Source of the DNA: Opitutaceae bacterium
GTDB taxonomy: Bacteria > Verrucomicrobiota > Verrucomicrobiia > Opitutales > Opitutaceae
Assembly: GCA_015075305.1 (NCBI GenBank)
Contig: JABTUS010000012.1
Span: 1-64,000 of the forward strand
Length of the DNA stretch: 64,000 nt
Direction: 5' to 3'
Each line of letters starts with the position of its first letter. The first letter of the stretch is position 1. Made by a program: the position numbers and the translations under genes. A model generated the notes under the pieces. It saw only the letters and a list, made by a program, of their open reading frames with translations, was not told where the DNA came from and did not search any database. Shown piece after piece: positions 15,611 through 42,430 of the stretch.

Positions 15611-15625
15611 GTTTTTCCGCGGGGG
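15611..15625 (+). promoter_or_regulatory. GTTTTTCC box upstream of the dsbC-traW-traU operon
   Basis: GTTTTTCCGCGGGGG lies 55 bases before the dsbC start. The same core is found before pilL, before the gene at 33663 and before traE. Candidate activator-binding site. Confidence 0.45.
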
Positions 15626-15680
15626 TTCTGCTGCACGAGGGGGGTATCGTAGATCCCTGCTAATTTAGAGGGGGACCGTC

Positions 15681-16406
15681 TTGCGCGTTCTGTTTTTTCT
15701 TACTTCCGTAATATGGGTATCCATCGCCTATGCCGGCGAGACGGAATCCGTAATAAAAAAACTCAAGGCCCTCTATCCAGCCACGCAGTTCGATCACGTC
15801 AAAGAAACACCGATCGCCGGCATGTTCGAGGTCAAGATGGGGGAGAACATCGCTTACGTTACCAGGAATGGTAGATATTTTTTCATTGGGGCGCTCTACG
15901 ATATGCAGGACCAGGTCGATTTAACCGCGCAGGCTGTCAGCGGAAGACAAGCCTCGGCCCAGACGGCGGCGCGGACAACCGGTAAGCGCAACTCGGATAT
16001 CGCTTCATTACCAGTGGATAAGGATGCAATCGTTCGTGTGCAAGGCACAGGCGCGCGCACAATCGTGCTGTTCTCCGATACGGAATGCCCGTATTGCAGA
16101 CAACTCGAGCGAACCCTGGCATCTATTCAGAATGTCACGATACACACGTTTCCGGTGGCGATGTTCGGGCCGCCTGAAAACGGCGTGAGCATCTGGTGTT
16201 CGGCGGACAGGGCAAAGGCATGGAACGCGCTTATGCTCGACGGCGAGGCGCCGAGAAAAAACGCATGCCCCAATCCGCTGCAAAGGAATACCCGGCTTGC
16301 CGGCTCTCTGGGCGTCAGGGGCACGCCGGTCATGTTCAATTCAAACGGGGAAATGCTGGCCGGAGCCCAGACGAAAGAGACTATAGAGGCATGGCTCGAC
16401 TTCTGA
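15681..16406 (+). CDS. dsbC: DsbC-like disulfide isomerase of the transfer system
   Basis: A 241-residue periplasmic thioredoxin-fold protein. It has a signal peptide (to SIAYAG), a DsbC N-terminal dimerisation part (residues 20-70), and after a linker the active-site block VLFSDTECPYCRQLE (CPYC near residue 137) with the cis-Pro loop RGTPVMF near 215. TTG at 15681 is the start, with GAGGGGG 9 bases upstream. DsbC helps fold Cys-rich transfer proteins such as TraU and TraN. It overlaps traW by 16 bases. Confidence 0.85.
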   Translation: MRVLFFLTSVIWVSIAYAGETESVIKKLKALYPATQFDHVKETPIAGMFEVKMGENIAYVTRNGRYFFIGALYDMQDQVDLTAQAVSGRQASAQTAARTTGKRNSDIASLPVDKDAIVRVQGTGARTIVLFSDTECPYCRQLERTLASIQNVTIHTFPVAMFGPPENGVSIWCSADRAKAWNALMLDGEAPRKNACPNPLQRNTRLAGSLGVRGTPVMFNSNGEMLAGAQTKETIEAWLDF

Positions 16407-17017
16407 TTCTTCTGTCTGTTGCGCTGACAATGCCTGCGGCTGCTCAGAATCTCGGAGCGCATGGGCAGACATACCCCGTGCAAGAACCCGACATGATCGA
16501 GATGATCGAGCGCAAGGCAAAAGCGTTCGTTGATAGCGGGCGCTATGAAAAATGGAAAAACGAGTCGATAGAGCGGGCAGGGGGCACATTTCTTTCGCCG
16601 CCTGCATCCATCGTTACGAAGGCAACGACTCGGCGGGATCGCTCATTCGACCCGACTTACGTCGTGCCCGAGGACATCACGGGCGCAACCGGACAAGTGC
16701 TTGTTGGCGCGGGGACACGATTCAATCCGCTCGATTACCAGCCACCCATCCAGCCGCTTCTATTTTTCGATTCGCGTGACCCCGCGCAAGTTGCATGGGC
16801 GGAGCGCATCATCGAGGCAGAAGGCGGCAAAGCGGTTCTTACTGCCGGAGAATGGACGGAGTTGAGTCGTCGCTGGGGGAAGCGTGTGTTCTTCGATATG
16901 GGGGGGTGGATCACGCGGCGCTTTGGCATCGAAGCCGTGCCTGCTGTCATTCGGCAAACCGGCCGCCTTCTGACAATCACCGAAGAACCGCCGTTGGCAG
17001 AAGGAGGGCAGCAATGA
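16391..17017 (+). CDS. traW: TraW, F-type pilus assembly protein
   Basis: A 208-residue exported protein (signal peptide LLILLSVALTMPAAAQ) close to the length of F TraW (about 210). The central PLLFFDSRDPAQVAWAERI and the C-terminal RFGIEAVPAVIRQTG are typical of the TraW family, which is needed for F-pilus assembly with TraU and TrbC. The start at 16391 lies inside the end of dsbC, and the stop overlaps the traU start (ATGA), indicating coupled translation. Confidence 0.85.
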   Translation: MARLLILLSVALTMPAAAQNLGAHGQTYPVQEPDMIEMIERKAKAFVDSGRYEKWKNESIERAGGTFLSPPASIVTKATTRRDRSFDPTYVVPEDITGATGQVLVGAGTRFNPLDYQPPIQPLLFFDSRDPAQVAWAERIIEAEGGKAVLTAGEWTELSRRWGKRVFFDMGGWITRRFGIEAVPAVIRQTGRLLTITEEPPLAEGGQQ

Positions 17018-18057
17018 AAGCGCTGCTTTTCGCAATTGTTGCGTTTGCTTGTCTTGCGGCAGATACGGCCAGCGCAACTTGTTCCGGGAGATTCCCAAAC
17101 CCGATCACCGATATTTGCTGGCGTTGCATGTTTCCGCTTCGTTTGGGCAACACAATCATCTGGGGCCGCGGGCAACACGATAACGATTCATCGAAGGATA
17201 GTAAGTTTGTCTGCGCATGCGGGATGAGCTGGGTGGGAATCAGCACGGGGTATTGGGAACCATCCCATCTGATAGACGTGTCAGCCGATCCGTATTGCAC
17301 TCCGTCGCTAGGGGGCAAGGTTCTCTCCGATTTCGGTCTGCCGGCGGACGCCGAGGGGACCAACTCACCGCAAAGGGGGGTTACCGGGCACAGCTACACC
17401 TCATTGCACTACATCACTTACCGTTTCCCGGTGCTGGAACTCCTTCAAGTTCTTTCAGACAACCCTTGCGTTGATAGGTCGCCCTTCGACATCCTTGACT
17501 TCAGCGCAGTAAACCCAGGCTGGGTTGATGAGCAGATAGGAGCGCTCCTGAACCCAGACGCGTTCCTGTACGGGACGATCGAAGCACTTATGACAGGTGT
17601 TCCCGTGGGGGTCTGCTCCACAACGGAAACTGAGGATGAAGCATGCCTGGCGCTAAGGCGCCTCGCGCATTGGAGCGTTGGGTTCAACGGCATGACTTAT
17701 CCATTGAGCGGCACAAGCGCCGGGCGGGACAGCACGATAGCTGTAACGATGAATATCGCCAAGCGCGCATTTACTGTTCAACATCGGACAATGCGCGTCT
17801 GGGGGACTTCCGGGAAGAAGGGGTTGTGCGGCTATTACCCGCAACCTTTTCTGGATGATACAGATTACAAACTGTCAATGCTTTATCCGCTTCCGCAAGC
17901 GACGCCGACATTGAATGGAAAATGCTGCCAGACATTCGGGGGGTCCACGCTGGCATGGGGCGCTGGCAGGACATGGCCAGTCAAAGGGGAAGATTTTTCC
18001 TACCTGGTGTTCAAAAAACGAGATTGCTGTCTTGCGGGAGGGAAGCTTGCCAAGTAA
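17014..18057 (+). CDS. traU: TraU, DNA transfer/pilus assembly protein
   Basis: A 347-residue Cys-rich periplasmic protein with signal peptide (ends DTASA). Family features visible: CWRCMFPLRLGN near residue 35, CACG, the central ILDFSAVNPGWVDEQIGALLNPDAF, and CCQTFG with a final CC near residue 340. About 15 Cys fit the need for the nearby DsbC. F TraU is 330 residues. It overlaps traW by four bases. Confidence 0.9.
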   Translation: MKALLFAIVAFACLAADTASATCSGRFPNPITDICWRCMFPLRLGNTIIWGRGQHDNDSSKDSKFVCACGMSWVGISTGYWEPSHLIDVSADPYCTPSLGGKVLSDFGLPADAEGTNSPQRGVTGHSYTSLHYITYRFPVLELLQVLSDNPCVDRSPFDILDFSAVNPGWVDEQIGALLNPDAFLYGTIEALMTGVPVGVCSTTETEDEACLALRRLAHWSVGFNGMTYPLSGTSAGRDSTIAVTMNIAKRAFTVQHRTMRVWGTSGKKGLCGYYPQPFLDDTDYKLSMLYPLPQATPTLNGKCCQTFGGSTLAWGAGRTWPVKGEDFSYLVFKKRDCCLAGGKLAK

Positions 18058-18841
18058 TCGAATGCTGGCCGTGTGCATTTTAATGATGGCGGCCTCGCAA
18101 TCCTTTGCCTCCGATTCGATCAATCTCGATCTTGAAGCTATCAGGCGAGCAAATCCTGTGCCGACAGATACCGCGGTGGCAGAAGAATTACGGCGCCTTC
18201 AACCCATTATCGATAAGGCCTCTGCCGCATCCCCGGCCAAGGGCAGGGAAGTACCCAGGGTACAGGCCCCCCCCCAAGCAATGCCAGCTAAACCGGCCCG
18301 AGGCACAGATGTATGGTCGCCGAAATGGCTCGCCGAACAAAACCAGGTCACGCCACAAATCGATATTAAGAAAATGCTCTCAGGAGCAAGAGTGGCCGCT
18401 GAAGGGGCGGTGAGCAGCGCGCAGAATGATGGCGAACTCTACGTATTTTTATCTCTATCCATTCCGGACAAAAAACTCAGGCAATTGATCGAGCTTGCGG
18501 CTGATTGGGGGGTAACGGCCGTATTCCGTGGGCCGATGGATGAAGAAGACATGATGGGGACGCGGATGGCGCAAAGGATCCAAAGGCTAAATCCTGCCAA
18601 TGTGGGAGATATACAAATCAACCCGCCTTTGTTTCAACGCTTCTCGGTAAGCCAGGTTCCATCATATGTCCTTGAGCTTGTCTCTGAAAGGAACAAAGCG
18701 ATGGATAACGGATGCGCACCGGAAGGCGTTTACGCGCGCGTCGATGGCGACGTAACGCCAGAGTACGCTTTGCGGAGAATTGGCATAAAGGGGGCCGCTC
18801 ATCTAGCAAGGGCAGCCAGGCGCATTCTGGAAGCCAAGTGA
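18047..18841 (+). CDS. trbC: TrbC, F-type pilin assembly protein
   Basis: A 264-residue exported protein. The TTG at 18047 follows GGGAGGGA with good spacing and gives a full signal peptide; the ATG at 18062 is an alternative. The C-terminal half has the TrbC_Ftype pattern: LYVFLSLSIPDKKLRQLIELAADWGVTAVFRG and INPPLFQRFSVSQVPSYVL, a thioredoxin-like fold without the catalytic Cys. TrbC works with TraW in pilus assembly. It overlaps traU by 11 bases. Confidence 0.85.
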   Translation: MPSNRMLAVCILMMAASQSFASDSINLDLEAIRRANPVPTDTAVAEELRRLQPIIDKASAASPAKGREVPRVQAPPQAMPAKPARGTDVWSPKWLAEQNQVTPQIDIKKMLSGARVAAEGAVSSAQNDGELYVFLSLSIPDKKLRQLIELAADWGVTAVFRGPMDEEDMMGTRMAQRIQRLNPANVGDIQINPPLFQRFSVSQVPSYVLELVSERNKAMDNGCAPEGVYARVDGDVTPEYALRRIGIKGAAHLARAARRILEAK

Positions 18842-19839
18842 GAGCAACATACCGCACCCATCGTCAAAAGGCGCTGCTGCGCATCGTCATCACCCGTCGG
18901 CTGTTTCTGGCTTGCGTGATCGTCGCCGGATTGGTCGCGCCGGCGTCTGCAAACGATGAGACAGGCATCGCGGACTGGATACGCAGCGGTGCGGAGGAGT
19001 TTCTCAAGGACATGGGGGTCAAAACACATTCCTTGCGCGACGAGGCAGTCAAGGTCAAAGAATGGCAGGAAACACTTGTGGCGGGGGCCAACCCAGAGGC
19101 GCTGGCTGAAATGCAAAGGTTGGCTCAAAGGGGACATTCGGGGGCAATAAACTTCATCGGCTGGCTGCTTGATAACGGAATGGGAGGGGTTCCGCGTGAT
19201 TCAGCCAAAGCTGCGATTTATTTCAAACGAGCAGGCGAGCGGGGTGAAGACAATGGGGCCTATAACCTGGCGTTGCTAAAGGTGCATGGGCGCGGCGTCA
19301 AGAGGGCGCAACAGGAAGCCATCGATGTATTCGTGCGCCTAGACAGGAAGGGACACGAACTCGCGTCGTTCCAGCTTGGCAGACATGCCGAAATACAAGG
19401 CAAGCATGCGGATGCAGCTCGATTCTTTGCCAAGGCAAGCCTTGGCAGAAGGCATCCGTATGCGATTTTCAAATCGGGCTTTTATACCTTCACTGGCAGC
19501 GGCGCCGGGATGGGATCTCGTGACCGAAAGAGCGGGTTGATGATGATCGAGCGTGCCGCGGGGCTATGGAGCCATGAAGCTATGGCAGCGCTTGTGGAGA
19601 TCCACGCGAAAGGAATATTTGTTCAAAGCAACCCAGTCGAAGCGGCAAAATGGCTAGTGCTGCTGCAGCAGAACCCCTATCTCAAAGATCGCGCGTCACT
19701 CCCAATGCTTCGCGGATCCTTTTCAATCACGACTGAACAATTTAAGCAGGCGGAGCGCAATGCAAGTATTTGGCGTGCGCATCATCCGGTAGAAGCGGCG
19801 GGAGAGCCGATGAATTATGACAGGACAGTCTATCGTTGA
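18838..19839 (+). CDS. Exported Sel1-repeat protein
   Basis: Start at GTG 18838 overlapping the trbC stop; 333 residues. An N-terminal signal-like segment (LFLACVIVAGLVAPASA) is followed by Sel1-like/TPR-like helical repeats: GHSGAINFIGWLLDNGMGGVPRDSAKAAIYFKRA, then NLALLKVHGRGVKRAQQEA and EIHAKGIFVQSNPVEAAKWL. Sel1 proteins act as protein-protein adaptors. Its place as last gene of the first transfer operon, where F-like systems often have traN, suggests a periplasmic partner of the mating apparatus. TnpB element copy 1 has inserted 55 bases after its stop. Confidence 0.75.
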   Translation: MRATYRTHRQKALLRIVITRRLFLACVIVAGLVAPASANDETGIADWIRSGAEEFLKDMGVKTHSLRDEAVKVKEWQETLVAGANPEALAEMQRLAQRGHSGAINFIGWLLDNGMGGVPRDSAKAAIYFKRAGERGEDNGAYNLALLKVHGRGVKRAQQEAIDVFVRLDRKGHELASFQLGRHAEIQGKHADAARFFAKASLGRRHPYAIFKSGFYTFTGSGAGMGSRDRKSGLMMIERAAGLWSHEAMAALVEIHAKGIFVQSNPVEAAKWLVLLQQNPYLKDRASLPMLRGSFSITTEQFKQAERNASIWRAHHPVEAAGEPMNYDRTVYR

Positions 19840-19894
19840 GCAAACGTCCAAGCTCATCCTCCGGCTACAGCCGGCCAATCACGCGCGGTAGTAG

Positions 19895-21402
19895 TTATCA
19901 GATGCGCCGTAAAACCCCGTCCTTCAGGGCGGGGATATAAGGCGCGGACGCTGGAAGCGGCCTTGGAAGACGAAATAAACCAGCGGCTCTGCCCTTGATT
20001 TGGTAATTTGGATCGATGCTCGTTTTGCAGTCCTACCGCTACGCAATGCACCGCGCCAAGCCACTTGAAGCGCGGTTCCGGCGCTTCGCCGGCGCGCGTC
20101 GCTGGGTGTGGAACAAGGCGCTGGCTTTGCAGTTCGATGCGCGGTCGCGCGGCGAAAAGGCCCCGCGCTATGTCGATCTGGCCAACCGGCTGCCGCGGTG
20201 GAAGCTCGAACACCCCTGGCTCAAGGAAATCCACTCCCAGGTGTTGCAGCAGGCCCTGAAGGATCTCGACCGTGCCTGGGCCAAGCGCTTCAAGGATCTG
20301 TCCGCCGTCAAGCGCGGCGAGATGCGCCCGATGGACGCCGCAGGCGAACCGTCCTTCCGGCGCTACGGCATCGGGGATTCCTTCCGCTATCCCCAGCCGA
20401 AACCGGAGCACGTCGATGCCGCCAACGGCCGCGTCTTCCTGCCGAAAATCGGCTGGGCGCGCTATCGAAACTCCCGGCGGCCCGAGGGGCAGCCCAAGCA
20501 AATCACGGTATCGCTCGATGCCGGGCGCTGGGTGGTCTCGATCACCTCGGAGGTCGAGCGGCAGGCGGGAGCCTTACCCTGCGCCGGCGAGGTCATCGGC
20601 GCCGACAGGGGCGTCACCGATACGCTGGCACTCTCGAACGGCCACCGTGTTGCCCCGCTCAATGCGCTCAAGCGGTCGGCCTACCGTCTCAAGCGCTATC
20701 AACGCGCTGTCGCTCGCAAGATCGAGGCGCAGAAGCGGGCGATGGGCCTGGACCCCAAGGCACCCTTCCCGAAGGGCGTGCGGCCGGGGAAGTCGAACCG
20801 GCAGCGGCGCGCCGAGCAGCGCGTGGCGCGCTGCCATCGCCACATCGCCAATCAGCGCCGGGACTGGCTGCACAAGGAGACGACGCAAATCGCGAACCGC
20901 GCCGCAGTCGTGGTGCTCGAAGACCTGAACATCCGCAACATGACGGCCAGCGCCAAGGGATGCGCCGAGGCGCCAGGCCGGAACGTCCGGCAGAAGGCCG
21001 GGCTCAACCGCGCAATCCTCGATCAAGGGTGGCATGCCCTGGAAGCCCTGCTGCGCTACAAGCTCGGCTGGCGCGGGGGCGAGGTGATCAAGGTCAGCCC
21101 GGCCTACACCAGTCAGAAATGTTCCTGCTGCGGGCATGTCGATGCCGCCAGCCGGAACGGAAAACACTACCTCTGCACGGCCTGCGGCCATGCGGAGGAC
21201 GCCGACATCAACGCGGCGAAGAACATTCTTGCGGCGGGACTCGCCGTGCTCGCCGGCCGGACGGCCGCGCGAATGGACGTGGAGGATGCGGTGCAGCCAA
21301 GCCGGCCGATGAAGCGTCAACCTGCCAGCGCCAAGGGGGGTGCGGCATGCAATCCCTGAGCGCAGTTGGAATCCCCTTCCTTCAGGAAGGGGAGGAGGTC
21401 AA
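19895..21402 (+). mobile_element. IS200/IS605-type TnpB element without tnpA, copy 1
   Basis: Limits come from comparing the two copies in this window: identity starts at TTATCAG (19895) and ends at GGTCAA (21402), 1508 bp. The left end has a subterminal hairpin at 19915-19934 (8-bp stem, TTCA loop) and the right end one at 21373-21392 (8-bp stem, TTCA loop), the features recognised by IS605-type Y1 transposases. TCAA as right cleavage site and TTAT at the left are like the IS608 system. No tnpA is present, so movement would need help in trans. The 3' part should also encode an omega-RNA ending at the right end. Confidence 0.8.
20016..21359 (+). CDS. tnpB: TnpB RNA-guided nuclease, intact
   Basis: A 447-residue TnpB/OrfB protein. 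All three RuvC acidic positions are present: Asp in GADRGVTDT (near residue 195), Glu in VVLEDLNIRNM (near 305) and Asp in EDADINAAKN (near 400). The zinc ribbon is CSCCGHVD...YLCTACG. The N-terminal helix-turn-helix-like part (FRRFAGARRWVWNKAL) is complete. It differs from copy 2 by one residue (Ala/Val near position 48). TnpB of this kind cuts DNA next to a short target motif under guidance of the element's 3' RNA. Confidence 0.9.
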   Translation: MLVLQSYRYAMHRAKPLEARFRRFAGARRWVWNKALALQFDARSRGEKAPRYVDLANRLPRWKLEHPWLKEIHSQVLQQALKDLDRAWAKRFKDLSAVKRGEMRPMDAAGEPSFRRYGIGDSFRYPQPKPEHVDAANGRVFLPKIGWARYRNSRRPEGQPKQITVSLDAGRWVVSITSEVERQAGALPCAGEVIGADRGVTDTLALSNGHRVAPLNALKRSAYRLKRYQRAVARKIEAQKRAMGLDPKAPFPKGVRPGKSNRQRRAEQRVARCHRHIANQRRDWLHKETTQIANRAAVVVLEDLNIRNMTASAKGCAEAPGRNVRQKAGLNRAILDQGWHALEALLRYKLGWRGGEVIKVSPAYTSQKCSCCGHVDAASRNGKHYLCTACGHAEDADINAAKNILAAGLAVLAGRTAARMDVEDAVQPSRPMKRQPASAKGGAACNP

Positions 21403-21552
21403 ACCCGTCCTAGTGGGTTAGCGTATTCAGGCGTCGAATTCACTCGTTTAGCGGGTGTTTTTCCGGGGTAAATATACAAGGCCGCCTCGATAAACTTTTA
21501 ACTGGCGCTATAAATGCGCAATTTTTACGCAGACTTTGGGTAAGGGAACGTC
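21403..21552 (+). promoter_or_regulatory. Leader and promoter region of the pil operon
   Basis: Between the TnpB element and pilL. It holds a GTTTTTCCGGGG box (21457-21468) and, about 40 bases later, TATAAATGCG (21510-21519), a possible -10 element. TTTACGC and GGGTAAGGG follow before the ATG at 21553. The TnpB insertion lies just upstream and might affect expression. Confidence 0.4.
21457..21482 (+). promoter_or_regulatory. GTTTTTCC box upstream of pilL
   Basis: GTTTTTCCGGGGTAAATATA, then CAAGGC, similar over about 27 positions to the box at 33591 (GTTTTTCCGGCCTAATTAAT, then CAAGGC). The match extends well beyond the core, supporting a shared binding site. Confidence 0.55.
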
Positions 21553-22257
21553 ATGCGATTTTCAATCATGGTCCTCATCGCTGTCCTTTTTCAAGCTGCC
21601 TCGGCGTTGGCGGATTTCAGAATTGCCGAGGGGGGTAGCGACATCACGGCCGGGCCCAAGCGGAACACCACGAATGTGCTTGGCGAAATCGGGAGTAGAC
21701 CATCCCATATCCAAGCGCAGAGCTTCCCCGGGGTCGAGATCCCAATCGGCGAAGCTCTCAAGCGCATTACGCCATCTGGCTGGCGGGGGTACTCGAAAGG
21801 GGCGCGGCTTGATGGAGTAGTCGGCTGGGATAGGACTGCCGAGTGGCCAGATGCCCTGGCGAAGGTTCTCGAAGACAGCGGCAACAGGGCTGTTATCGAT
21901 TGGGAAAAGCAAACTATCACTGTCTATCAGGACGTTCGCAAGACGGCAGCAGCTCCAAAAAAACCGGCCCAGCCTCAACCAGGCACATTAGTTCCGACAG
22001 TATCCGGCAAATGGACCTTGCGCGCCGGGCGTGAGATAGACAGGGAGCTGGAGGGGTGGGCCAAGAAAAGCGGCTGGCAGCTGAACTGGCAAATGCAGAA
22101 GACATGGAAGGTTGCGGCCGACGCGGAATTCACGGGTGATTTTGTGACTGCGATCACGAAGGTTGTAGAGCTCCTGTATTCCGAAGGCAGGCCCATCCGG
22201 ATGAAATTATGGGAGGGTAATCGCGTCGCTGACATCTACTCGTCGGACGTGAGATAA
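21553..22257 (+). CDS. pilL: PilL-like, TcpQ-domain protein of type IVb pilus
   Basis: A 234-residue exported protein (signal peptide ending ASALA). Residues about 55-125 form a secretin-associated domain (IPIGEALKRITPSGWRGYSKG). The C-terminal domain (GKWTLRAGREIDRELEGWAKKSGWQLNWQ...FVTAITKVVELLY) is the TcpQ type found at the C-terminus of R64 PilL. It has no lipobox. First gene of the pilus operon; the secretin gene follows 34 bases later. Confidence 0.75.
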   Translation: MRFSIMVLIAVLFQAASALADFRIAEGGSDITAGPKRNTTNVLGEIGSRPSHIQAQSFPGVEIPIGEALKRITPSGWRGYSKGARLDGVVGWDRTAEWPDALAKVLEDSGNRAVIDWEKQTITVYQDVRKTAAAPKKPAQPQPGTLVPTVSGKWTLRAGREIDRELEGWAKKSGWQLNWQMQKTWKVAADAEFTGDFVTAITKVVELLYSEGRPIRMKLWEGNRVADIYSSDVR

Positions 22258-22291
22258 ACATCGTCCTACTCCTGGCTAAAGCGGAGATTTT

Positions 22292-24007
22292 ATGAAACGG
22301 ACAATCAATATACTACTGGCGATAGCAGGCACCGTGCTTGCGAGCGGGTGCAACACGATCCCCGCTAAGGAAGGTATTGCCAAGGCGCAATCAGCGGCAG
22401 TCGAAGAAAAGACAAGAATGGCGGAATCAGCGACCACTGCGGCGGTAACGCGAACCTCGGCGCCAAAGTTGGCCGGCACCGAGATAGCCATCAAAAGCAG
22501 GACCGAGCTGCCGGGGCTTTTCAAGGATCCAGTTGTCTACATCTCGCATAGCGATGATTTGACAGGCGTACTCACCTCGCTGACGCAGCAAACCGGCATT
22601 CAAATCGTGCTTTCGCACCGCCGTCCCCAGGAAAGCAGCGGAGCGCCTACGCCATCAACAGGGGGCGCGCAACGCGAGCCATTTCCTGTCGATTGGCGAG
22701 GCGGGTCGTTAAAAGCCCTGCTTGACCATATTTCGCAAAAGATAGGGATGCATTGGCGCTATCACGATGGGCGAGTTGAAATCATCAATAACGAAACGCG
22801 CTCGTTCCATGTATACGTTCCCGGGGGTTCTAAGACCGTAACCGCATCCATAGCCTTGAGCGGCTCTGGCGCCGGCGGTGGCGGCGGTGCAGCCGGTGGT
22901 GGCGCTGGTGGCGCGGCCGGCGGAGCAGCAGGCGGTAGCGCGTCTGGAGGAGGCGGGGGGGGGGCCGACAGCGTTAGCGTCTCATCAACGCAATCGATCG
23001 ATCCGTATTCAGCAATCGTTAAAACGATCGGCGCTATGCTTTCGGAAGGCAACGCTTCAACGGCATCAGCGGCAGCTCCTGCAACAGGTGCGGCGCGGGG
23101 TGGCGCAGGCGCTCCCGCTGCCGGAGGCGGCGCATCTGTCTCGGGAGTCGTGGCCAATCCAGAGCTCGGAATAATCACGGTTACTGCGCCTCCGCCTACC
23201 CTAGACAGGGTTGCCGAGTACATCGATTCGATCAACCGGCGATTCGCCCAGAACGTGATGATCGACGTGAAAATCTACTCGGTGAATGCGTCAAAGGAAA
23301 TGGGGGGGGGGTTTTCGCTCACCGCACTACTGGGCATTCTTGGCAAATACGGACTGGCCGTCGCCGGAGCGCCAATATTGGCGACCACCGCCGCACAAAG
23401 CACCATGACGGTAGAGTCGCGCGGCGCCAATCATCAGACCTCGTTAATGATCAGCGCTCTGCAGCAGTTCGGGGATGTGTCGCTGGTACGATCAGGGCAA
23501 GTAATCGCGGTCAATGGCCAGCCGGCGCCCATGCAGCTTGCTGAAGAAATCACGTACCTAGCCTCGACAAGCACGACCCAAGCGGCGAATGTGGGTACAA
23601 CGACAACGCTCACGCCAGGGAAGCAAACGGTGGGGTTTACGGCTAATTTTCTGCCGATGATTCTGGGAGACAACCGCATTCTTCTCCAGTATCAAATCAA
23701 TCTCTCTTCGCTTTTGGCGCTCACACAGGTCTCTAGCGGGAGTGCCAGCATTCAAACTCCATCTGTTTCGACGCAAACGCTGCAGCAGCAGGCGTTTGTA
23801 CGAGATGGGGAGTCTATTGTTTTGTTCGGGTTCGATTCCGACCGCAACGCAACCCAAGAGGCAGCGGGCATCGGCAACCTTAGCAAGACCGCGCACACCC
23901 AGCGCAATCTGCTGGTGATTGTCATGCAGGTATTCGGCGGTCAGAAAGATGCAGCGCTAAATCCCGCTCAGCGGCCTGCTCAGCACGATTCCCGCAAAGC
24001 CGCCTGA
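22292..24007 (+). CDS. pilN: PilN outer-membrane secretin of type IVb pilus (lipoprotein)
   Basis: A 571-residue secretin lipoprotein with lipobox LASGC at Cys 20. N-terminal domains (DLTGVLTSLTQQTGIQIVLSHRR; LKALLDHISQKIGMHWRYHDG) precede a long Gly/Ala/Ser-rich insert (residues 190-285). The secretin core starts with PPPTLDRVAEYIDSINRR and includes VMIDVKIYSV and a C-terminal LIVIMQVF. Two runs of ten G lie in the coding sequence (22955-22964 and 23302-23311), both in frame here, so slippage could switch the gene off. Homologous to R64 PilN. Confidence 0.85.
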   Translation: MKRTINILLAIAGTVLASGCNTIPAKEGIAKAQSAAVEEKTRMAESATTAAVTRTSAPKLAGTEIAIKSRTELPGLFKDPVVYISHSDDLTGVLTSLTQQTGIQIVLSHRRPQESSGAPTPSTGGAQREPFPVDWRGGSLKALLDHISQKIGMHWRYHDGRVEIINNETRSFHVYVPGGSKTVTASIALSGSGAGGGGGAAGGGAGGAAGGAAGGSASGGGGGGADSVSVSSTQSIDPYSAIVKTIGAMLSEGNASTASAAAPATGAARGGAGAPAAGGGASVSGVVANPELGIITVTAPPPTLDRVAEYIDSINRRFAQNVMIDVKIYSVNASKEMGGGFSLTALLGILGKYGLAVAGAPILATTAAQSTMTVESRGANHQTSLMISALQQFGDVSLVRSGQVIAVNGQPAPMQLAEEITYLASTSTTQAANVGTTTTLTPGKQTVGFTANFLPMILGDNRILLQYQINLSSLLALTQVSSGSASIQTPSVSTQTLQQQAFVRDGESIVLFGFDSDRNATQEAAGIGNLSKTAHTQRNLLVIVMQVFGGQKDAALNPAQRPAQHDSRKAA

Positions 24008-24021
24008 TCCGGAGAGACCTT

Positions 24022-24540
24022 ATGATCAAGAGACTACCGACATCAATTGCACTCGCAGCGATTCTGGCGGCGCCAGTATGGGCTGCTGAGCCTCACAGTT
24101 GGCTAGACGACATGGCGAACATGGATGCGCAGATCAAGATTCTGCGCAAACAAGAAGAGCTACGCGCCGAGCGGGCAAGGGCGGCCTCAAACCTGTCTCC
24201 CCTGCCAAAGATTGTCGCCATACATGAGTTTGGCGGGCGTGCGAAGGCAAAGCTGCTACACGAAGATGGCCGTCTTGAGACGGTAGGGGAAAACGACTAC
24301 ATCGGGCAGGGCGTGCGAATCGCGGCCATTACTGCACGAGGAGTAATGGTTGTCATCAGTAGGAAGGGGAAAAAGGAAACCATGACCGAGTTGCTCTTCA
24401 CTCCGATTGCAACTGCGGGTAGCACTCAACAAGGCAAGGGGCCGGAGATCCCGGCTGCGCTTCTTCCTCCCCCTCCTCCTGTCAACTTTAATGTGGCTGC
24501 CCCAACCGCGCCCGCTCAGCCTACGCCGCAACCGAAGTAG
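24022..24540 (+). CDS. pilP: PilP, type IVb pilus biogenesis protein
   Basis: A 172-residue exported protein (signal peptide ending APVWAA). An N-terminal coiled-coil-like segment (DAQIKILRKQEELRAERARAA) precedes a small beta domain (PKIVAIHEFGGRAKAKLLHEDGRLETVGENDYIG), and the tail is Pro-rich. This is the IncI PilP pattern, a periplasmic connector between inner-membrane complex and secretin. It sits between pilN and pilO. Confidence 0.75.
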   Translation: MIKRLPTSIALAAILAAPVWAAEPHSWLDDMANMDAQIKILRKQEELRAERARAASNLSPLPKIVAIHEFGGRAKAKLLHEDGRLETVGENDYIGQGVRIAAITARGVMVVISRKGKKETMTELLFTPIATAGSTQQGKGPEIPAALLPPPPPVNFNVAAPTAPAQPTPQPK

Positions 24541-24544
24541 CACC

Positions 24545-30344: not shown

Positions 30345-30356
30345 GAGAGGTATTCC

Positions 30357-31456: not shown

Positions 31457-31469
31457 GAGAGGAGACTGT

Positions 31470-32459: not shown

Positions 32460-32465
32460 TTCCTC

Positions 32466-32484: not shown

Positions 32485-32495
32485 GTAGAGCCTCT

Positions 32496-33539: not shown

Positions 33540-33590
33540 AGGGACACGATAAGAGCGGGGGCTTTCGACGAAAACGCATGTTCCGGGGAT

Positions 33591-33617
33591 GTTTTTCCGG
33601 CCTAATTAATCAAGGCA
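33591..33617 (+). promoter_or_regulatory. GTTTTTCC box upstream of the gene at 33663
   Basis: GTTTTTCCGG then CCTAATTAAT and CAAGGC, closely similar to the box before pilL. It lies 72 bases before the next start, at the beginning of a transcription unit that runs through pilus and transfer genes. Confidence 0.55.
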
Positions 33618-33662
33618 ACGTGGTTACCATGCATTCTGGGTTAAAAAAAGGATGCGTCAGCC

Positions 33663-34349
33663 ATGTTCTTCAGGAGAAACAAGGAAGCCACTGAGCGGGA
33701 TGCAAGCGCAGAAATCACGCTTGCTGAAATCCCCAATCGAAAAACCCTAATAGTCCGCGGGATATCGGTGCTGGTGGGCATCGGGGCACTCGTATTCATG
33801 GGCTATCAATACCAAAACCGCTCAATCGGCGGTGGCAACGATCCCATATCCAAACTGATCAACCAGCAAGGGGCGAAGAAACCGGACCTGCCCCCATTGC
33901 GAGTCGAAGCCGTGCCTCGCCAGGAACAGGGGCCGCAAGCAACGCAACCATCAACGACAGTCTCTCCGGCGACAGAACCGACGACGGCCATTCAACCTGT
34001 GGCAGCCACTGCAGGGCCGGCACAATCGGATTCAGCGCCGACCCTCACCCCGCAAGCCCAGAAGACCACCGAGTCCGAGCAAGCCGTCATCGCTTCGCCT
34101 GGCCCGGCAGAAAGCCAAGCCAGCCATAGCCCTCCTGCCAAGGGGAAAGAACAAGCGACGCAAAATGTGGTCATTGCCGCCACAGCGATCATCGAACGCG
34201 AAGAACAGCAGGCGCCGCAACAATCAAAGGCAGACGCAGGCAAGCTGAAGCGCTCAACAGCATCCAAGACAAAAACGATGACCGCCACTAAAACGGCAAA
34301 GGGATCTTCTGTCGAGGACGACAGCGACGCCGGAGTCAGAATCTTCTAG
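33663..34349 (+). CDS. Single-pass membrane protein with long Pro/Ala/Thr-rich periplasmic tail
   Basis: A 228-residue protein: 30 charged residues, one membrane segment (IVRGISVLVGIGALVFMGY near residues 35-50), then about 170 residues rich in Pro, Ala, Thr, Gln and Lys without clear fold. The shape resembles TonB- or VirB10-like spanning proteins. No family recognised. It is the first gene of a trio with FimV-like and DotD-like proteins, so a role as envelope-spanning connector of the pilus is a reasonable inference. Confidence 0.6.
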   Translation: MFFRRNKEATERDASAEITLAEIPNRKTLIVRGISVLVGIGALVFMGYQYQNRSIGGGNDPISKLINQQGAKKPDLPPLRVEAVPRQEQGPQATQPSTTVSPATEPTTAIQPVAATAGPAQSDSAPTLTPQAQKTTESEQAVIASPGPAESQASHSPPAKGKEQATQNVVIAATAIIEREEQQAPQQSKADAGKLKRSTASKTKTMTATKTAKGSSVEDDSDAGVRIF

Positions 34350-34366
34350 CAACCGGAGGACCACGA

Positions 34367-35398: not shown

Positions 35399-36462
35399 TG
35401 GTGATCTCGAAACATTTATTGTTCATCTTCGGGTTGATTCTGGGCGGCACGGTCCACGCCAATGAAGCCCTGCACGGAGTAAAAACAACTCGCGAGGGCG
35501 TCCTCTACCGTATTGACGAGGCCGCCCGAACCCCCTCCAGAACAGCCTACCGAATCCTTGAACGGGAGGCCGACGCAGACACGGCCGCCGCGCTGGAGGC
35601 CACTCCGGCGCGACTTCATCTCACCGAAAGAATGCAAGTCAAGGATGTGGCTGCCATTCTACTCAAGGATCATGGAATGGCAGTCCGGTTTTCGGGGCAG
35701 GGCGCCGTAGTCAAATCCGGTCGCATGGTAGGGCCGGTCGTGGTTTCCGGCTCACTTCTCGGCGCCTTGCGCAACCTTGGCAACCAGGCTGGATTGCAAA
35801 CAATTGTCCACCGAGATGCAATCGAGTTTGCGGATCGCAAGGGATTTGCGCTCGCGCTTCCATCATTCGAGAACCAGACAGAGATCGCAACCAAGCTGAT
35901 GGGCACCGGGGCATCAAATATCAAGATGGCTGCGGGCGCGGTTAATTTCGAAGCGGATTCCGATGCGCTGCGCGCCGTCCAACATCTGGTACGCGAATTA
36001 CGACAAGGACGTCGAGGCGTGAGCCCATTCCTGTCTGACCTTGCTTCACGCCAGCCTGCTCCACCTACACCGCCACCGGCAGCGCCCGATGCGCGCTCTA
36101 CCGAATTGTCCGTAGCGGAACAGGCGCTCATGAAACAAATGGGAATCGATGCGAAGTCGATCAAGACATCACCTCCCGTATTACCAGTCAAGACAAAGGC
36201 CGCAAGTCCGGACCCGTTGCTGGCCTCGACCATAACGATTACTTACGAAGGGGACTTGGTAAAGGCAGTGGAGCGCCTGGCAGAGGAGGCGGAAGTAGCC
36301 CATCGCATCGTCTCCAAGCCGCGCAAGCCGGTCAAGGTTAAGCTGAATTTCCGCAACGCTCCACTTCAAGCCGTTCTTGAAGCGCTCGGCCGCCAGTCCA
36401 AGGGTAAAGCTGAGATTGTCTATGATAAATCGGCACGCCGCATCGATATTGTTGCTCGCTAG
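35398..36462 (+). CDS. Exported protein with DotD/secretin N0-like C-terminal domain
   Basis: A 354-residue exported protein (signal peptide ending VHA). Residues 75-200 contain a secretin-like N-domain pattern (MQVKDVAAILLKDHGMAVRFSGQ; LLGALRNLGNQAGLQT). The last 85 residues (STITITYEGDLVKAVERLAEEAEVAHRIVSKPRKPVKVKLNFRNAPLQAVLEALGRQ) fit the DotD/TraH domain of IncI and Dot/Icm systems, which joins the outer-membrane ring. There is no lipobox. Together with the two genes before it, it may form a ring complex for the pilus secretin. Confidence 0.55.
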   Translation: MVISKHLLFIFGLILGGTVHANEALHGVKTTREGVLYRIDEAARTPSRTAYRILEREADADTAAALEATPARLHLTERMQVKDVAAILLKDHGMAVRFSGQGAVVKSGRMVGPVVVSGSLLGALRNLGNQAGLQTIVHRDAIEFADRKGFALALPSFENQTEIATKLMGTGASNIKMAAGAVNFEADSDALRAVQHLVRELRQGRRGVSPFLSDLASRQPAPPTPPPAAPDARSTELSVAEQALMKQMGIDAKSIKTSPPVLPVKTKAASPDPLLASTITITYEGDLVKAVERLAEEAEVAHRIVSKPRKPVKVKLNFRNAPLQAVLEALGRQSKGKAEIVYDKSARRIDIVAR

Positions 36463-36931
36463 CGCGATTTTGCTAGCGAGCGGCAAGGTGGCCGCCAGCC
36501 ATCATGTTACATCCTGTTTCGAGCAGGCCGGTGCCCGCTATCGAATTAGCCCGCTCCTGCTCTGGTCTATTGCAAAGACCGAATCCAACTTCAATCCGCG
36601 GGCCATTAACCGCAGCAATGCCAACAAAACCTACGATATAGGGATGATGCAGATCAACAGCGCGTGGCTATCGACACTCCAGCGCTACAACATTTCGGAA
36701 CAAGATCTCTATGACGCCTGCACGAGCATTCATGTTGGTGCATGGATACTTGCGCAGAATGTAGCGAGACACGGGTATACGTGGAAAGCCGTCGGGGCCT
36801 ACAACGCGGTCACCCCATCCAAGCAGGCCAAATATGCCGCCAAAGTGCTCAAAACAGCAAACGAGGTCGCGGGATCTGCGCCGGCCGTCCCGAGTGTGCG
36901 CGAAGCTCCCCGCATCAGAGTCCAAGGATAG
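36422..36931 (+). CDS. Lytic transglycosylase (R64 PilT / VirB1 type)
   Basis: A 169-residue exported protein with SLT fold: catalytic Glu in IAKTESNFNP near residue 55, DIGMMQINSAW, and a late AVGAYNA. This family (R64 PilT, IpgF, VirB1, F orf169) opens peptidoglycan for pilus or channel assembly. ATG 36422 lies 40 bases inside the end of the previous gene; the signal segment is SILLLASAILLASGKVAAS. Confidence 0.85.
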   Translation: MINRHAASILLLASAILLASGKVAASHHVTSCFEQAGARYRISPLLLWSIAKTESNFNPRAINRSNANKTYDIGMMQINSAWLSTLQRYNISEQDLYDACTSIHVGAWILAQNVARHGYTWKAVGAYNAVTPSKQAKYAAKVLKTANEVAGSAPAVPSVREAPRIRVQG

Positions 36932-36940
36932 GAGGCCGGC

Positions 36941-38338
36941 ATGTCTATGTATGGAATGCCAGACCTATTCATATCCACCAGCTCGCGCGATGCGAAAACG
37001 GTCCAGTGGCTCAATTCGCTGTTTCTCTCCGCCGTCAGAAAGGGCGCCTCCGACATCCATTTCGAGGACATGGAGCAGGATACGCGGGTTCGTTTTCGTA
37101 TCAATGGCACACTGACAACCATTGAATCTGTTCCGCGCATGCTGTCGATCGATGCGATGAACAAGATCCGGGCTCGGACAGATTTACCGCTGTCCGATCT
37201 AAGACGCCCGCTCGATGGCAGATTCTCGCTTGATTATAAAAACGATGGCGTCTGCATCGATGTAAGGGCGTCGTTTACGCCGATCATCCACGGTACATCG
37301 CTGGTCTGCCGCGTGCTGGATCAGCGCAACACGCTCAGAACGATCGACGAAATCGAGATGACCGATGAGGTGCGTAAGTGGGTGAGCATCCTGCTGCACG
37401 AGCCTCATGGCTTATTTCTGGTTTCCGGCCCGACCGGATCAGGCAAAACCTCCACTCTTTACGCAATATTGAACGCTCTGCGCGACGAAACGCGCAAAAT
37501 CTCAACCATCGAGGATCCGGTTGAATATCGCGTTCCAGGCCTATGCCAGACCAACATCGAGGGCAACCTGACTTTTGCCGATGTGCTGCGCGCGGAGCTG
37601 AGGCAGGACCCTGATGTGATCCTTGTCGGGGAAATCCGGGACGCGGAAACCGCGCAGATTGCGTTGCAGGCGTCGATGACAGGGCATCTCGTGCTCTCTA
37701 CGCTACACGCCAATGATGCCGCGGCATCGGTAGGCCGGATGCTCGATCTGGGCGCCGACCCAAGCACGCTTGGCGCAGCGCTGCGTGGCGTGCTTGCGCA
37801 AAGGCTTGTACGCCGACTGGCTGAGCGGCACGACATGGCGCCTCCGACAGAAGCCGAGATATTCTGGCTGCAGAACCATGACATCGAGGTTTCTACGGAC
37901 AACGTCTTCGGCGTTCCCGTTGAAAACGAAGGAGAGGATGGCTACGACGGACGGGTTCCCGTGATGGAGTTAATCGTCATCGACAGAACGGTGCGCAACG
38001 TGCTGCCGCTGAAGGATCCGAAAGCGATACGAACAGTGGCACGCCGGCAGCCGCAGTACCAGACTCTTGCAGCATCGGCCGCCGACCTTGCGCGGCGCGG
38101 CCTGACAAGCGTTACCGAGGCCTACACGGTCTCCTCCATTTCCGAACACCTAAGGTCATTCCGTACGCTACCCGAGCGCCTGATCGAGCTGGGCAAGCTA
38201 TCCCCATATCAGTACGATGTTTGCAAGCAGATACAACTCGAGGCGTCACGTATGGGGCGTCGGATGACGCTTGAGGATGTGCTGGTTTCACAGCGTTACG
38301 TTTCGCAATCGGATATCGATGAAGTCACAGATCTATAG
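36941..38338 (+). CDS. GspE/PilB-type secretion ATPase
   Basis: A 465-residue ATPase: the KGASDIHFED block near residue 35, Walker A GPTGSGKTS near residue 168, Asp box STIEDPVEY, Walker B DVILVGEIRDAET near 225 and His box GHLVLSTLHANDA. The C-terminal part has only a remnant of the zinc region (no CxxC pairs). The last 50 residues (LIELGKLSPYQYDVCKQIQLE...EDVLVSQRYVS) resemble the N1-like domain usually found at the N-terminus of PilB. It is the second extension-type ATPase in the pil region, next to PilQ. Confidence 0.85.
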   Translation: MSMYGMPDLFISTSSRDAKTVQWLNSLFLSAVRKGASDIHFEDMEQDTRVRFRINGTLTTIESVPRMLSIDAMNKIRARTDLPLSDLRRPLDGRFSLDYKNDGVCIDVRASFTPIIHGTSLVCRVLDQRNTLRTIDEIEMTDEVRKWVSILLHEPHGLFLVSGPTGSGKTSTLYAILNALRDETRKISTIEDPVEYRVPGLCQTNIEGNLTFADVLRAELRQDPDVILVGEIRDAETAQIALQASMTGHLVLSTLHANDAAASVGRMLDLGADPSTLGAALRGVLAQRLVRRLAERHDMAPPTEAEIFWLQNHDIEVSTDNVFGVPVENEGEDGYDGRVPVMELIVIDRTVRNVLPLKDPKAIRTVARRQPQYQTLAASAADLARRGLTSVTEAYTVSSISEHLRSFRTLPERLIELGKLSPYQYDVCKQIQLEASRMGRRMTLEDVLVSQRYVSQSDIDEVTDL

Positions 38339-38993
38339 CAACTGGCGTGCTGTTCTGTTTGGCGCGGCGATCGGTTTTGCGGCGTGGAGCGCTATGGCGC
38401 AAAGCACGGCCGGCATACCGCTTCCGGACATGGACATGCCATATCAGACCGTTTCTGTGCATGAGGATGCGAATGTGGTGCGCGTGTTCTTTATGGGCAC
38501 CTGCAGCTACTGCAGGCAGGCTCATGCGCCGCTTATTCGATGGGGGAAGAGCTTGCCCAGAACTCTCAAGTTCGAGATGACACCCGTGGCCTCAACGGAC
38601 CCCGCCCATATGGTGGGGGCGGCGGCTTACTACGCAGTAGAGAGAATTTCGCCTGGGAATACGGATCTGTTCATGGAGCGTGTGTATTCCGCTATCCAGG
38701 ATCACCGCCAACCGGCAAGCGACCCGCGCACTTATCTGGCAGCCGCACGCGCCATTGGCATCGATCCGCGTGTTTTGAATGATGCGATGCGCAGCAAGGA
38801 AAACCGCGACAAGGTGTTTGCAGCGGCACGAATGCTTGCCAGATACAAGGTCGACTCAACTCCATCGATGGCGATCGGCGGGCGCTATGTTGTCGGCACC
38901 GAGGTTACCCAGGGGGTGAATTCGAATCTGTTCGATTTGCTTAACGCGGTTACATCGAAATACCTAATTGAGACTGGAAGGGGGAAGGGTTGA
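38319..38993 (+). CDS. DsbA/DsbG-like periplasmic thiol-disulfide protein
   Basis: A 224-residue exported thioredoxin-fold protein: signal peptide (ending AMAQS), active site FMGTCSYCRQAH near residue 65, a helical insertion of DsbA type, and cis-Pro segment DSTPSMAIGG near 185. The start ATG 38319 overlaps the end of the ATPase gene by 20 bases. It is the third thioredoxin-like protein of the transfer/pilus cluster (with DsbC and TraF), which fits the Cys-rich TraN encoded soon after. Confidence 0.8.
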   Translation: MKSQIYSNWRAVLFGAAIGFAAWSAMAQSTAGIPLPDMDMPYQTVSVHEDANVVRVFFMGTCSYCRQAHAPLIRWGKSLPRTLKFEMTPVASTDPAHMVGAAAYYAVERISPGNTDLFMERVYSAIQDHRQPASDPRTYLAAARAIGIDPRVLNDAMRSKENRDKVFAAARMLARYKVDSTPSMAIGGRYVVGTEVTQGVNSNLFDLLNAVTSKYLIETGRGKG

Positions 38994-39586
38994 GGCTCCA
39001 ATGGGTAGTCGCGGCCATGCTGTCGATGTCCGCGGGTTGCGTTACGGTAGGACAAAGGGCACCTGATTCGATATCAGAAATCGGTGGGGGCGAAATATCG
39101 CTGGTATATGTGCAACCGCCCAGATTGTGCAGTCGCGAAGTCCAGGCCTACTCGGATTTCGCCTTCATACGACCATCTCAGGAAACCGTGGTTGGGAATA
39201 CGACCTGCGATGGGTTCGATGGCATGGGCGCTGCGGAGGTGGTCTGGTGGCGCCAGGAGGGTAGCGGCCGATGGGAGCCGTCACCTGATATCGAACGCAA
39301 ACTCCATTTCAAGCAGGAATTCATCAAGGGATCGACCGCAATACCCAAGCAATCCAGTGCGATGGAAGCTCTTCTCGCTGTAGCCAAGGCAAATCCGGGC
39401 AGCCCAATACGTCTTACAGTCTATTCAGAGGAGAAGGAGCACAAGCGCATCACCGAGTTGCGCACCAAAGCTGTTCGCGACTGGCTTGCGCGCAAGGGGG
39501 TGGATCCGAAGCGCGTCATCGGTGTGGCAGGAAGTGTGGGGACGCCACGCGCGGAGGCTGAGATCGTCGTCATTATCAAGGGATAG
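38990..39586 (+). CDS. Lipoprotein with OmpA-like C-terminal domain
   Basis: A 198-residue protein starting at TTG 38990, overlapping the previous stop. The N-terminus has a lipobox MSAGC near residue 16. The C-terminal part (SAMEALLAVAKANPGSPIRLTVYSEEKEHKRITELRTKAVRDWLARKGVDPKRVIGV) follows the OmpA_C peptidoglycan-binding pattern. Probably an outer-membrane lipoprotein anchoring the apparatus to the wall. It is the last gene before traL. Confidence 0.6.
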   Translation: MRLQWVVAAMLSMSAGCVTVGQRAPDSISEIGGGEISLVYVQPPRLCSREVQAYSDFAFIRPSQETVVGNTTCDGFDGMGAAEVVWWRQEGSGRWEPSPDIERKLHFKQEFIKGSTAIPKQSSAMEALLAVAKANPGSPIRLTVYSEEKEHKRITELRTKAVRDWLARKGVDPKRVIGVAGSVGTPRAEAEIVVIIKG

Positions 39587-39592
39587 CCGCAA

Positions 39593-39871
39593 TTGGAGCC
39601 AGTACCCATTCCGCAGTACATCGACAACCCGCCCCAGATACTGTTGTGGGAAGCGGACGAAATCGCCCCTGTTGTCACACTTATTGGGCTGGGCATTATT
39701 ACCGGGACGCTCACCCAATGCCTGCTGATTTCCTATGCGGTGCATAAGGTGTTCTCTCATTTCAAGAGCAAGCAGATGCGAAATTTTCTGCTTCACTGGC
39801 TTTTCCGCATCGGGTTGATACCACTAAATCGCAAATTTACCAACGGGGCAGTTCGTTACTTCCATGTCTAA
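39593..39871 (+). CDS. traL: TraL, type IV conjugative transfer protein
   Basis: A 92-residue protein starting at TTG 39593. PVPIPQYIDNPPQILLWEADE is the family N-terminus, followed by one long hydrophobic region (VVTLIGLGIITGTLTQCLLISYAVHKVF) and the RNFLLHWLFRIGL segment. TraL is an inner-membrane pilus assembly protein (VirB3-like). Overlaps traN by eight bases. Confidence 0.85.
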   Translation: MEPVPIPQYIDNPPQILLWEADEIAPVVTLIGLGIITGTLTQCLLISYAVHKVFSHFKSKQMRNFLLHWLFRIGLIPLNRKFTNGAVRYFHV

Positions 39872-41969
39872 GTGGCATTGGCGACGTCTGACAGCCTGCT
39901 GTGTGATTGTCACCCAGCTGACATCTGCAATAGCGTTTGCGCAGGACCACACCCCGGATCTGGGCCAAGTACGCACCCAGATGGAATTGTTGCGCGCACT
40001 TACCGCTAATGCTCCGGAGACAATTGTTGGCACGCCTTCAGAGTATGACGAGGCGACGCTCAACCAGCTGTATGCCCAGGGGAAAACACCAGAGGCGCAT
40101 ACCGCGGCGAATATCCAGCGGATAAAAGAATGCGAGATGGCCGAGAACGTCGGCTATGCCGGCCTCACGCCAAAAGAACGGACAGAATGTCAGGGGGTGC
40201 TGACGGTTGCACGTGCGCACAGGAAGCCCAATCCATACCTGGACAAGAACGATCCGAAATTCATCGGCGAGAAGCTCAAGCAGGAAGCTAAGGCAGCCCA
40301 CGACAAGGCGGAAGAGGATATCAGTCGCGGCCGCGTAGACGTCACGAACGCGATCAGTACACAGTTTGAATGCAGCGAAAAACAGGAGCCGCTGCCAGCA
40401 ATCCAAAGAGCCGATGTATGCAACGTCGATAAACCGGCGGAGGGGAAAACATGCGACATCCCGGTTGCTATTACCGTTGCCGACCGGGTCATCGGGACCA
40501 CGAGGGACGAGGCAGCCTGCATCCCGCTCGAGAAAGACGCCAAATGCGAAGTAGGCGAAGAAGAGTGCAGCGAGTATACGCGCGTCAATATCTCGCCAGA
40601 AGGCGAGGAGCCAGAGTATGTGACGGTATGTTCTAAATTCGTCCGCGGCTACACCTGCTGGCAACCCGACAAGCCCTGGAACGTAAGTTGGCCTTGCCAG
40701 CGTTTGGAAGCTGATCCCAACTGCATGTTTGTTGGGGAGTCTCCGCTGAAATTCATGGCGGGCAAACCGGTTCTTGCAGAAAATCATTATACCTGCGCCT
40801 TTACTCCGCCAGACTCAGCAAGGATCGGCACGAATTGCAGCACAAAGGTTTGTATTGGGGACACATGCACCTCAACGCCGGCGCAAAAGAACCCGGACTT
40901 TGCAAATGCCATGGTTGGCATGGAAGTGCTACGGCAAGGCGGGGTATACGCATGCGACCGGCAGCGCGAGGAGTGCGTGGATGAAACGGTCGAAGCGGAG
41001 GCCCAGCAGCTAAAGCTTTTCTCTGGTGTTGTTGATCGATGCCGGGATCCGATCATCGGTACGAATTGCTGCTCATCGAGCGACGGGGATTCCCTTAAAA
41101 CTAACCGGCAGGTTTTACCGTCCGTTACCGACGTATTCATCGAAAACGCCTTGGGCAATACGCACCTGGCCTCGAATTACGTCTACGACTTCATGTTCAC
41201 GAAGGGCGGCGACTGGATGATGGATAAGGCCATCGATGCCTGGTCATCCGGTGCCTGGGATCCGGGAGCCGGATTTAATCTGCGCCTGTCGCTCTATGGG
41301 TTTACGCTCAGTTACGGCGGGGGGGCTGGGGGAGGGTTCTTGGCCAATATGCTAGGGGGAGACAGTATTATCGGCCAGGGCCTGAATCTGTTTGGAGAGG
41401 GCGGCAACCTATTCACGATTACAGACATCATGGGAATCGAGGGCTTGAATTTAGGCTTCAATCCTTACGTGCTGGCGCTGCAAATCGCGATCTTCGTAAT
41501 ACAGCAACTCATGTCCTGCACAGTGGACGAGAAGATGCTGGCTATGCGAAGAGGCGGCGATTTATGCGTGAAGCTGGGGCGTAAATGCGCCAAGAAAATT
41601 CCAATCATTGGGTTGTGTATTGTTTATGTCGAGGCTTGGTGCTGCTGGAACTCGAGACTCGCCAAGATCATCGGAACTTACGGAGCGGCGCAACTTGGGA
41701 TGGGGCGAGCTAATTGCGCTGGATTTACTCCAGAACAGCTCGCGCAAATCGATTTTTCTCGTCTGCCGCTCGATCAGTTCATGAATGAAATCATGAGGAC
41801 GGCGAAACTGCCTGGCACGGATTTCACAAGCCGGGCCATGACTCATAGCGATAGACGCCGAGAGGATGCAATCAACTCGGTGGATCCGGCGGCAATATCT
41901 GAGCAGGTAATCGACCCTGATTTGGTTGATTACACCGCAGATCGCATTCGGTTCATGTTGGGGAGATAG
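39864..41969 (+). CDS. traN: TraN-like mating-pair stabilisation protein
   Basis: A 701-residue exported protein (signal peptide ending AFAQD) with more than 25 Cys, in clusters such as FECSEKQ, GYTCWQP, NCSTKVCIGDTC, TNCCSSSDG and EAWCCWNS. This Cys-rich outer-membrane pattern is that of TraN, which contacts the recipient cell surface. A Gly-rich hydrophobic stretch lies around residues 470-550. Placement directly after traL is unusual; F and SXT have traN after traU. Confidence 0.75.
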   Translation: MSKWHWRRLTACCVIVTQLTSAIAFAQDHTPDLGQVRTQMELLRALTANAPETIVGTPSEYDEATLNQLYAQGKTPEAHTAANIQRIKECEMAENVGYAGLTPKERTECQGVLTVARAHRKPNPYLDKNDPKFIGEKLKQEAKAAHDKAEEDISRGRVDVTNAISTQFECSEKQEPLPAIQRADVCNVDKPAEGKTCDIPVAITVADRVIGTTRDEAACIPLEKDAKCEVGEEECSEYTRVNISPEGEEPEYVTVCSKFVRGYTCWQPDKPWNVSWPCQRLEADPNCMFVGESPLKFMAGKPVLAENHYTCAFTPPDSARIGTNCSTKVCIGDTCTSTPAQKNPDFANAMVGMEVLRQGGVYACDRQREECVDETVEAEAQQLKLFSGVVDRCRDPIIGTNCCSSSDGDSLKTNRQVLPSVTDVFIENALGNTHLASNYVYDFMFTKGGDWMMDKAIDAWSSGAWDPGAGFNLRLSLYGFTLSYGGGAGGGFLANMLGGDSIIGQGLNLFGEGGNLFTITDIMGIEGLNLGFNPYVLALQIAIFVIQQLMSCTVDEKMLAMRRGGDLCVKLGRKCAKKIPIIGLCIVYVEAWCCWNSRLAKIIGTYGAAQLGMGRANCAGFTPEQLAQIDFSRLPLDQFMNEIMRTAKLPGTDFTSRAMTHSDRRREDAINSVDPAAISEQVIDPDLVDYTADRIRFMLGR

Positions 41970-41973
41970 CATA

Positions 41974-42399
41974 GTGCGCAAAGCGGCAGCAATCCTGATC
42001 TTGTCGGTCGTGCCCATATTGGCACAAGCCGAAGATCTGAATGGCTATATTTTTCTGGCCATAAAGAACGGAAGTGCTGGTGGCCCGGTAACTGACGCCA
42101 TGGCCAAGATGATCAAAGCCAAAACAGGCTCAGCGGAAACCCCGCAAGCCAAGGTAGAGGTCGTCGGCCAATTCCAGGACCCTACCTGCAAAAGAGTACG
42201 CGTGGCCATTTCTCAGGGGGGGGTAAAAACCTTGGAAGGGAAGGTCATAACCCTGCCGATTCCCCCATTCGAACTCAATATTTGCCTAAACGGCCGGCCT
42301 CCTGCCGAAACGCTGGATCCAGCGGCTGTCCAAGCCAGGGCAGAGGCGTTACACAAGCAGATGGGGGGTAGTAAGGGCATCGCCGGCACTGGGCGTTGA
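41974..42399 (+). CDS. Exported protein of unknown function between traN and traE
   Basis: A 141-residue exported protein starting at GTG 41974 (signal peptide AAAILILSVVPILAQA). One Cys pair (DPTCKRVR, NICLNG) could form a disulfide. No family recognised. A run of eight G (42216-42223) lies in the coding sequence. It ends the unit started at 33663; a GTTTTTCC box follows 20 bases later. Confidence 0.55.
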   Translation: MRKAAAILILSVVPILAQAEDLNGYIFLAIKNGSAGGPVTDAMAKMIKAKTGSAETPQAKVEVVGQFQDPTCKRVRVAISQGGVKTLEGKVITLPIPPFELNICLNGRPPAETLDPAAVQARAEALHKQMGGSKGIAGTGR

Positions 42400-42418
42400 A
42401 TTCACCCCTCCTGTAAGC

Positions 42419-42430
42419 GTTTTTCCCCGG
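42419..42430 (+). promoter_or_regulatory. GTTTTTCC box upstream of traE
   Basis: GTTTTTCCCCGG in the 90-base gap before traE, the fourth occurrence of the core at the start of a gene block. Conservation beyond the core is weak. Confidence 0.4.

Follow-up and report, generated by a model that had tools for sequence, protein, structure and literature searches.

The window analysed here is a stretch of 64,000 nt from a 90,570-bp contig, and it carries several blocks of conjugation and pilus genes. Four of these blocks begin with the same short box, which raises the question of what the box is and which regulator reads it. An earlier note placed GTTTTTCC at 15611, 21457, 33591 and 42419 on the + strand; all four copies are present, 70, 96, 72 and 71 bases before the first gene starts at 15681, 21553, 33663 and 42490. 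The same note took the boxes for the operator of a common activator. Judged from the sequence, a shared activator operator is well supported, because a fixed bipartite site stands at a constant distance from a -10-like element, without a -35 element, once per operon and never inside a gene.

The GTTTTTCC boxes are the right, promoter-proximal half of a longer operator. Alignment of the four reported copies by eye, which was then scripted, gives the 31-bp bipartite consensus GAAWWC-N15-KKTTTTCCSS. With the promoter part included this becomes GAAWWC-N15-KKTTTTCCSS-N24-(T)ANNNT, in which the final part is a -10-like hexamer. As first described, the box understated the signal, since the GAAWWC arm and the -10-like TANNNT 24 nt downstream had been missed. 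The extended match between the copies at 21457 and 33591 does exist, at 21/26 positions as counted by eye, but the other copies lack its CAAGGC end. The copy at 57677 is indeed a relative, but not a shorter one: it is a fifth full copy in exact register, with GAATTC at 57655.

The five operators are all intergenic and all + strand, with one for each transfer or pilus block (block contents from Pfam). Operator 1 (GAAAAC-N15-GTTTTTCCGC, 15590-15620; 15590..15650 with its -10-like TATCGT at 15645-15650) precedes a dsbC-traU-trbC block, which starts with TTG at 15681. Operator 2 (GAATTC-N15-GTTTTTCCGG, 21436..21496, -10-like TAAACT at 21491-21496) precedes a type IVb pilus block; its first gene, at 21553, is TcpQ-like and is followed by genes for a secretin, T2SSE, T2SSF, a prepilin and a shufflon-type protein. 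Operator 3 (GAAAAC-N15-GTTTTTCCGG, 33570..33630, -10-like TACCAT at 33625-33630) heads a FimV_N/DotD/SLT/T2SSE/DsbA/OmpA/TraN block with ATG at 33663. Operator 4 (GAATTC-N15-GTTTTTCCCC, 42398..42458, -10-like TATTAT at 42453-42458) heads the traE-K-B-V-C-F-H-G block with ATG at 42490; the TTG start listed at 42439 is upstream of the putative transcription start. Operator 5 (GAATTC-N15-TGTTTTCCGC, 57655..57715, -10-like CATCCT at 57710-57715) precedes a T2SSE ATPase gene with ATG at 57749. The first two bases (GA) of operators 1 and 4 lie within the TGA stop codon of the preceding gene, which counts against the explanation favoured below.

Gaps make up ~3.6% of the region from 15 to 60 kb, and 5/7 of the gaps of at least 40 nt hold one operator each. 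The two operator-free gaps (19840 and 55682) are the far sides of two copies of a TnpB insertion sequence (IS). These TnpB-type copies are near-identical, span ~19896-21397 and 56148-57615, and are each found in a gap with an operator just outside the IS. A further site at 45863..45893 (+) differs from the operator by one mismatch; it coincides with the beginning of a small gene (45861) that precedes traC. It was set aside because it has no -10, and is probably a chance match or a weak site.

Taken alone, the GTTTTTCC 8-mer shows mild enrichment, with 8 copies in the window where 2.56 are expected; 4/8 copies are inside genes, whereas the full operator is found in no gene. With both strands of the contig counted, GTTTTTCCSS occurs exactly four times, each time at a reported place, against a shuffle mean of 1.06. 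Five copies of the 31-bp operator in 90.6 kb compare with 0.003 expected from 300 dinucleotide shuffles, a figure that flatters the operator since its consensus derives in part from these very sites. Independent support comes from the fifth site, an unbiased dyad ranking and a Monte Carlo analysis of the upstream arm in the first four sites. The GAAWWC arm, exactly 15 nt 5' of the right half, was found post hoc from the four boxes (Monte Carlo P ~5e-6); the fifth box then fitted this arm in exact register. In a spaced-dyad search of gaps of at least 40 nt, GAA-N20-TTTTCC ranked first, with 5 regions against 3-4 in shuffles. The next-best match in the contig to operator plus -10 is three mismatches off, and elsewhere in the 4.87-Mb genome the operator was not found together with the -10. 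The chromosome has two exact operators, both without a -10, and two matches to box plus TANNNT, which are not among the chromosomal operator matches.

The distance from the operator end to the -10-like element is 24 bp in 5/5 sites, and in 4/5 the start codon follows 36-39 nt after the start of the -10. A -35 element was not found at the five promoters (at most 3/6 matches). This would place the operator at about -67 to -37. Class II geometry, in which the site is just upstream of the -35 position with a -10 22-24 bp away and no -35, thus appears to be present here. Operator 5 has a poor -10, which counts against the favoured explanation.

The element encodes two FlhDC-type gene pairs, A and B. 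In pair A, the FlhD-like subunit (9507..10019, +) has a weak match to PF05247 (E 0.005) and is homologous to the gene preceding FlhC in the plasmids pSTJ1 of Sulfuricystis and pAZI09 of Azospira (E 2e-11); its true start is probably Met16 (9552). The FlhC-like subunit (10003..10641, +) matches NF009365 FlhC (E 2.5e-4) and has 34% identity to the FlhC-family genes before mobH in the same two plasmids. The weak profile scores of pair A count against the favoured explanation. The relaxase gene traI/mobH is directly downstream of the FlhC-like gene; traI-traD, which adjoins pair A, has no operator, and this also counts against that explanation. Divergent from pair A is a gene for a Peptidase_S24-domain protein (8427..9233, -; PF00717, E 2e-5). 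A DNA-binding domain was not detected in this protein; by its domain and position it is a candidate SetR/CI-like repressor of pair A.

As FlhC and FlhD, the proteins of pair B have far better scores. Its FlhD-like subunit (60540..60821, -) matches PF05247 (E 2.5e-5) and the FlhD structure 1g8e (E 5e-4). Its partner is a tandem FlhC-FlhC fusion of 386 aa (59376..60536, -), which matches PF05280 in two stretches (E 3.9e-25) and has halves that are 45% identical (E 1e-50). An actin-like (ParM-type) protein (61060..62346, -; PF17989/PF21522) is encoded in the same gene run. No second two-domain FlhC was seen among the proteins met in this analysis, nor was a close relative of the fusion found. The FlhC profile, which misses the pair A FlhC, has no other match in the genome, and none was found among sampled genomes of the order (243) and of the class (384).

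Tetranucleotide composition separates the contig from the chromosomal contigs. It carries an integrase gene (~63587) and the actin-like partition gene; no replication gene was identified among the contig proteins scanned, and the contig ends do not overlap. Searches of sampled genomes with the fused FlhC, TraC, TraU and the pair A FlhC, and of genome and viral contigs with the first two of these, found no close relative of the element.

Homologues of pair A are found directly before mobH, followed by traD and a DUF4400 gene, in pSTJ1 and pAZI09. Neither appeared among the plasmids that match the fused FlhC, and pair B was not detected there. Both plasmids have their own shared box before mobH, an SLT gene and traW. 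Its ATTTCY half is 25-26 nt before a -10-like element, compared with 26 nt here (counted by hand). This box, CCATTYCTACRYCTA...CATTTC, is a repeat that likewise resembles an operator; partly matching copies are also found in pSTJ1 at 51165, 139425 and 145135. What is shared is a common box at several tra promoters with matching -10 spacing. Outside the proximal half-site the letters of the box differ from those of the operator here, which counts against the favoured explanation. A type IVb pilus block was not seen in the stretches of pSTJ1 and pAZI09 that were read.

The earlier suggestion of an FlhDC-type binder gains support because the element has two such pairs, the promoters have AcaCD/SetCD-like geometry, and plasmids with a homologous pair carry boxes with the same -10 spacing. 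The sites are probably class II FlhDC-type operators that are bound by an activator encoded by the element, more likely pair A (9507-10641), and that co-activate F-type conjugation and type IVb pilus genes. From sequence and analogy we infer that the heteromeric activator binds the operator and, working in class II mode, recruits RNA polymerase, so that both sets of genes would be switched on together; the divergent S24-domain protein may hold pair A off. Pair A is favoured because pSTJ1 and pAZI09, which have its homologues and no detected pair B, carry register-equivalent boxes; this evidence favours it moderately.

A serious but less likely alternative is that pair B activates these operators, while pair A has other targets or acts upstream of pair B. 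The better FlhC/FlhD scores of pair B would fit this; they favour neither pair, however, because Pfam profiles fit SetCD/AcaCD-type activators poorly (PMC4542580). Pair B is also in a run with a partition gene, as SetDC/AcaDC genes are near SrpRM homologues (PMC4542580), and a single-chain FlhC dimer would be well matched to a site with two arms. Against this are the register-equivalent boxes of the two plasmids. A more doubtful extension is that the single-chain FlhC dimer and its FlhD partner form a master activator that reads the two-armed operator, so that a rebuilt FlhDC would run conjugation and type IVb pili in a host group whose sampled genomes gave no FlhC.

It is improbable that the operator serves a different regulator encoded by the element, for instance the S24-domain protein as a repressor. 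Two-armed sites are common for repressors too, and this protein is encoded beside pair A as a candidate; however, a site upstream of a -10 with no -35 is in the position of an activator, and a search of the region beside the S24 gene (9234-9506) gave no match to it. There is very little chance that the repeat forms a stem-loop in the leader RNAs, acting after transcription through pairing of GAAAAC with GTTTTC. Operators 1 and 3 do have complementary arms, but operators 2, 4 and 5 combine a GAATTC left arm with an unchanged TTTT on the right, which breaks the pairing without compensation, and the window has no Rfam match. The stem-loop was rejected on these uncompensated changes. Least probable, to the point of being negligible, is that the repeats arose by chance or were spread by the two TnpB insertion sequences. 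Operators 2 and 5 are near the IS copies; the shared IS sequence, however, stops short of both, and an IS origin was rejected on this ground. Operators 1, 3 and 4 have no IS nearby, and the excess over shuffled sequence speaks against chance.

The favoured reading, an FlhDC-type class II operator probably served by pair A, would give a precise operator for this type of control outside the enteric and Vibrio elements in which AcaCD and SetCD were worked out. If it is true, conjugation and type IVb pilus genes are under one switch. Together, the sites here and those of pSTJ1 and pAZI09 suggest that promoter distance is conserved even as the recognised sequence varies. The fused FlhC would be a naturally occurring single-chain version of a heteromeric regulator.

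The sequence described here is probably a new operator within the AcaCD/SetCD kind of regulon. As in the AcaCD regulon of IncA/C (IncC) plasmids, an FlhDC-type pair is borne by the element and one type of operator precedes several tra operons (PMC4207636, PMC5058578); F-type transfer genes are also shared, with a TraI_2 relaxase here. AcaCD sites have a -10 22-24 bp downstream and no obvious -35 (PMC5058578), similar to the 24 bp and missing -35 here. In contrast to AcaCD, the operator here consists of two short arms separated by 15 nt and precedes type IVb pilus blocks as well, and there are two FlhDC-type pairs. The AcaCD core GCCCAAAATGGGC was not found; its two 2-mismatch matches are both inside IS genes.

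In the SXT/R391 ICEs, the SetCD box directly abuts a poor -35 on its upstream side, a class II position, and several operons are controlled (PMC4344509); the likeness to the sites here is one of position and of the number of operons. In SXT, SetR is a repressor (PMC10838148); compared with the SetR-setDC circuit, an S24-domain gene here is divergent from pair A, and may have a similar role. Passages of the same source on the IncT plasmid Rts1 report, by deletion, that the SetC-like and SetD-like orf246/orf247 are needed for transfer and that orf249 is a negative regulator (PMC10838148). Those passages do not describe an operator for Rts1, unlike the element here, in which five operators are defined.
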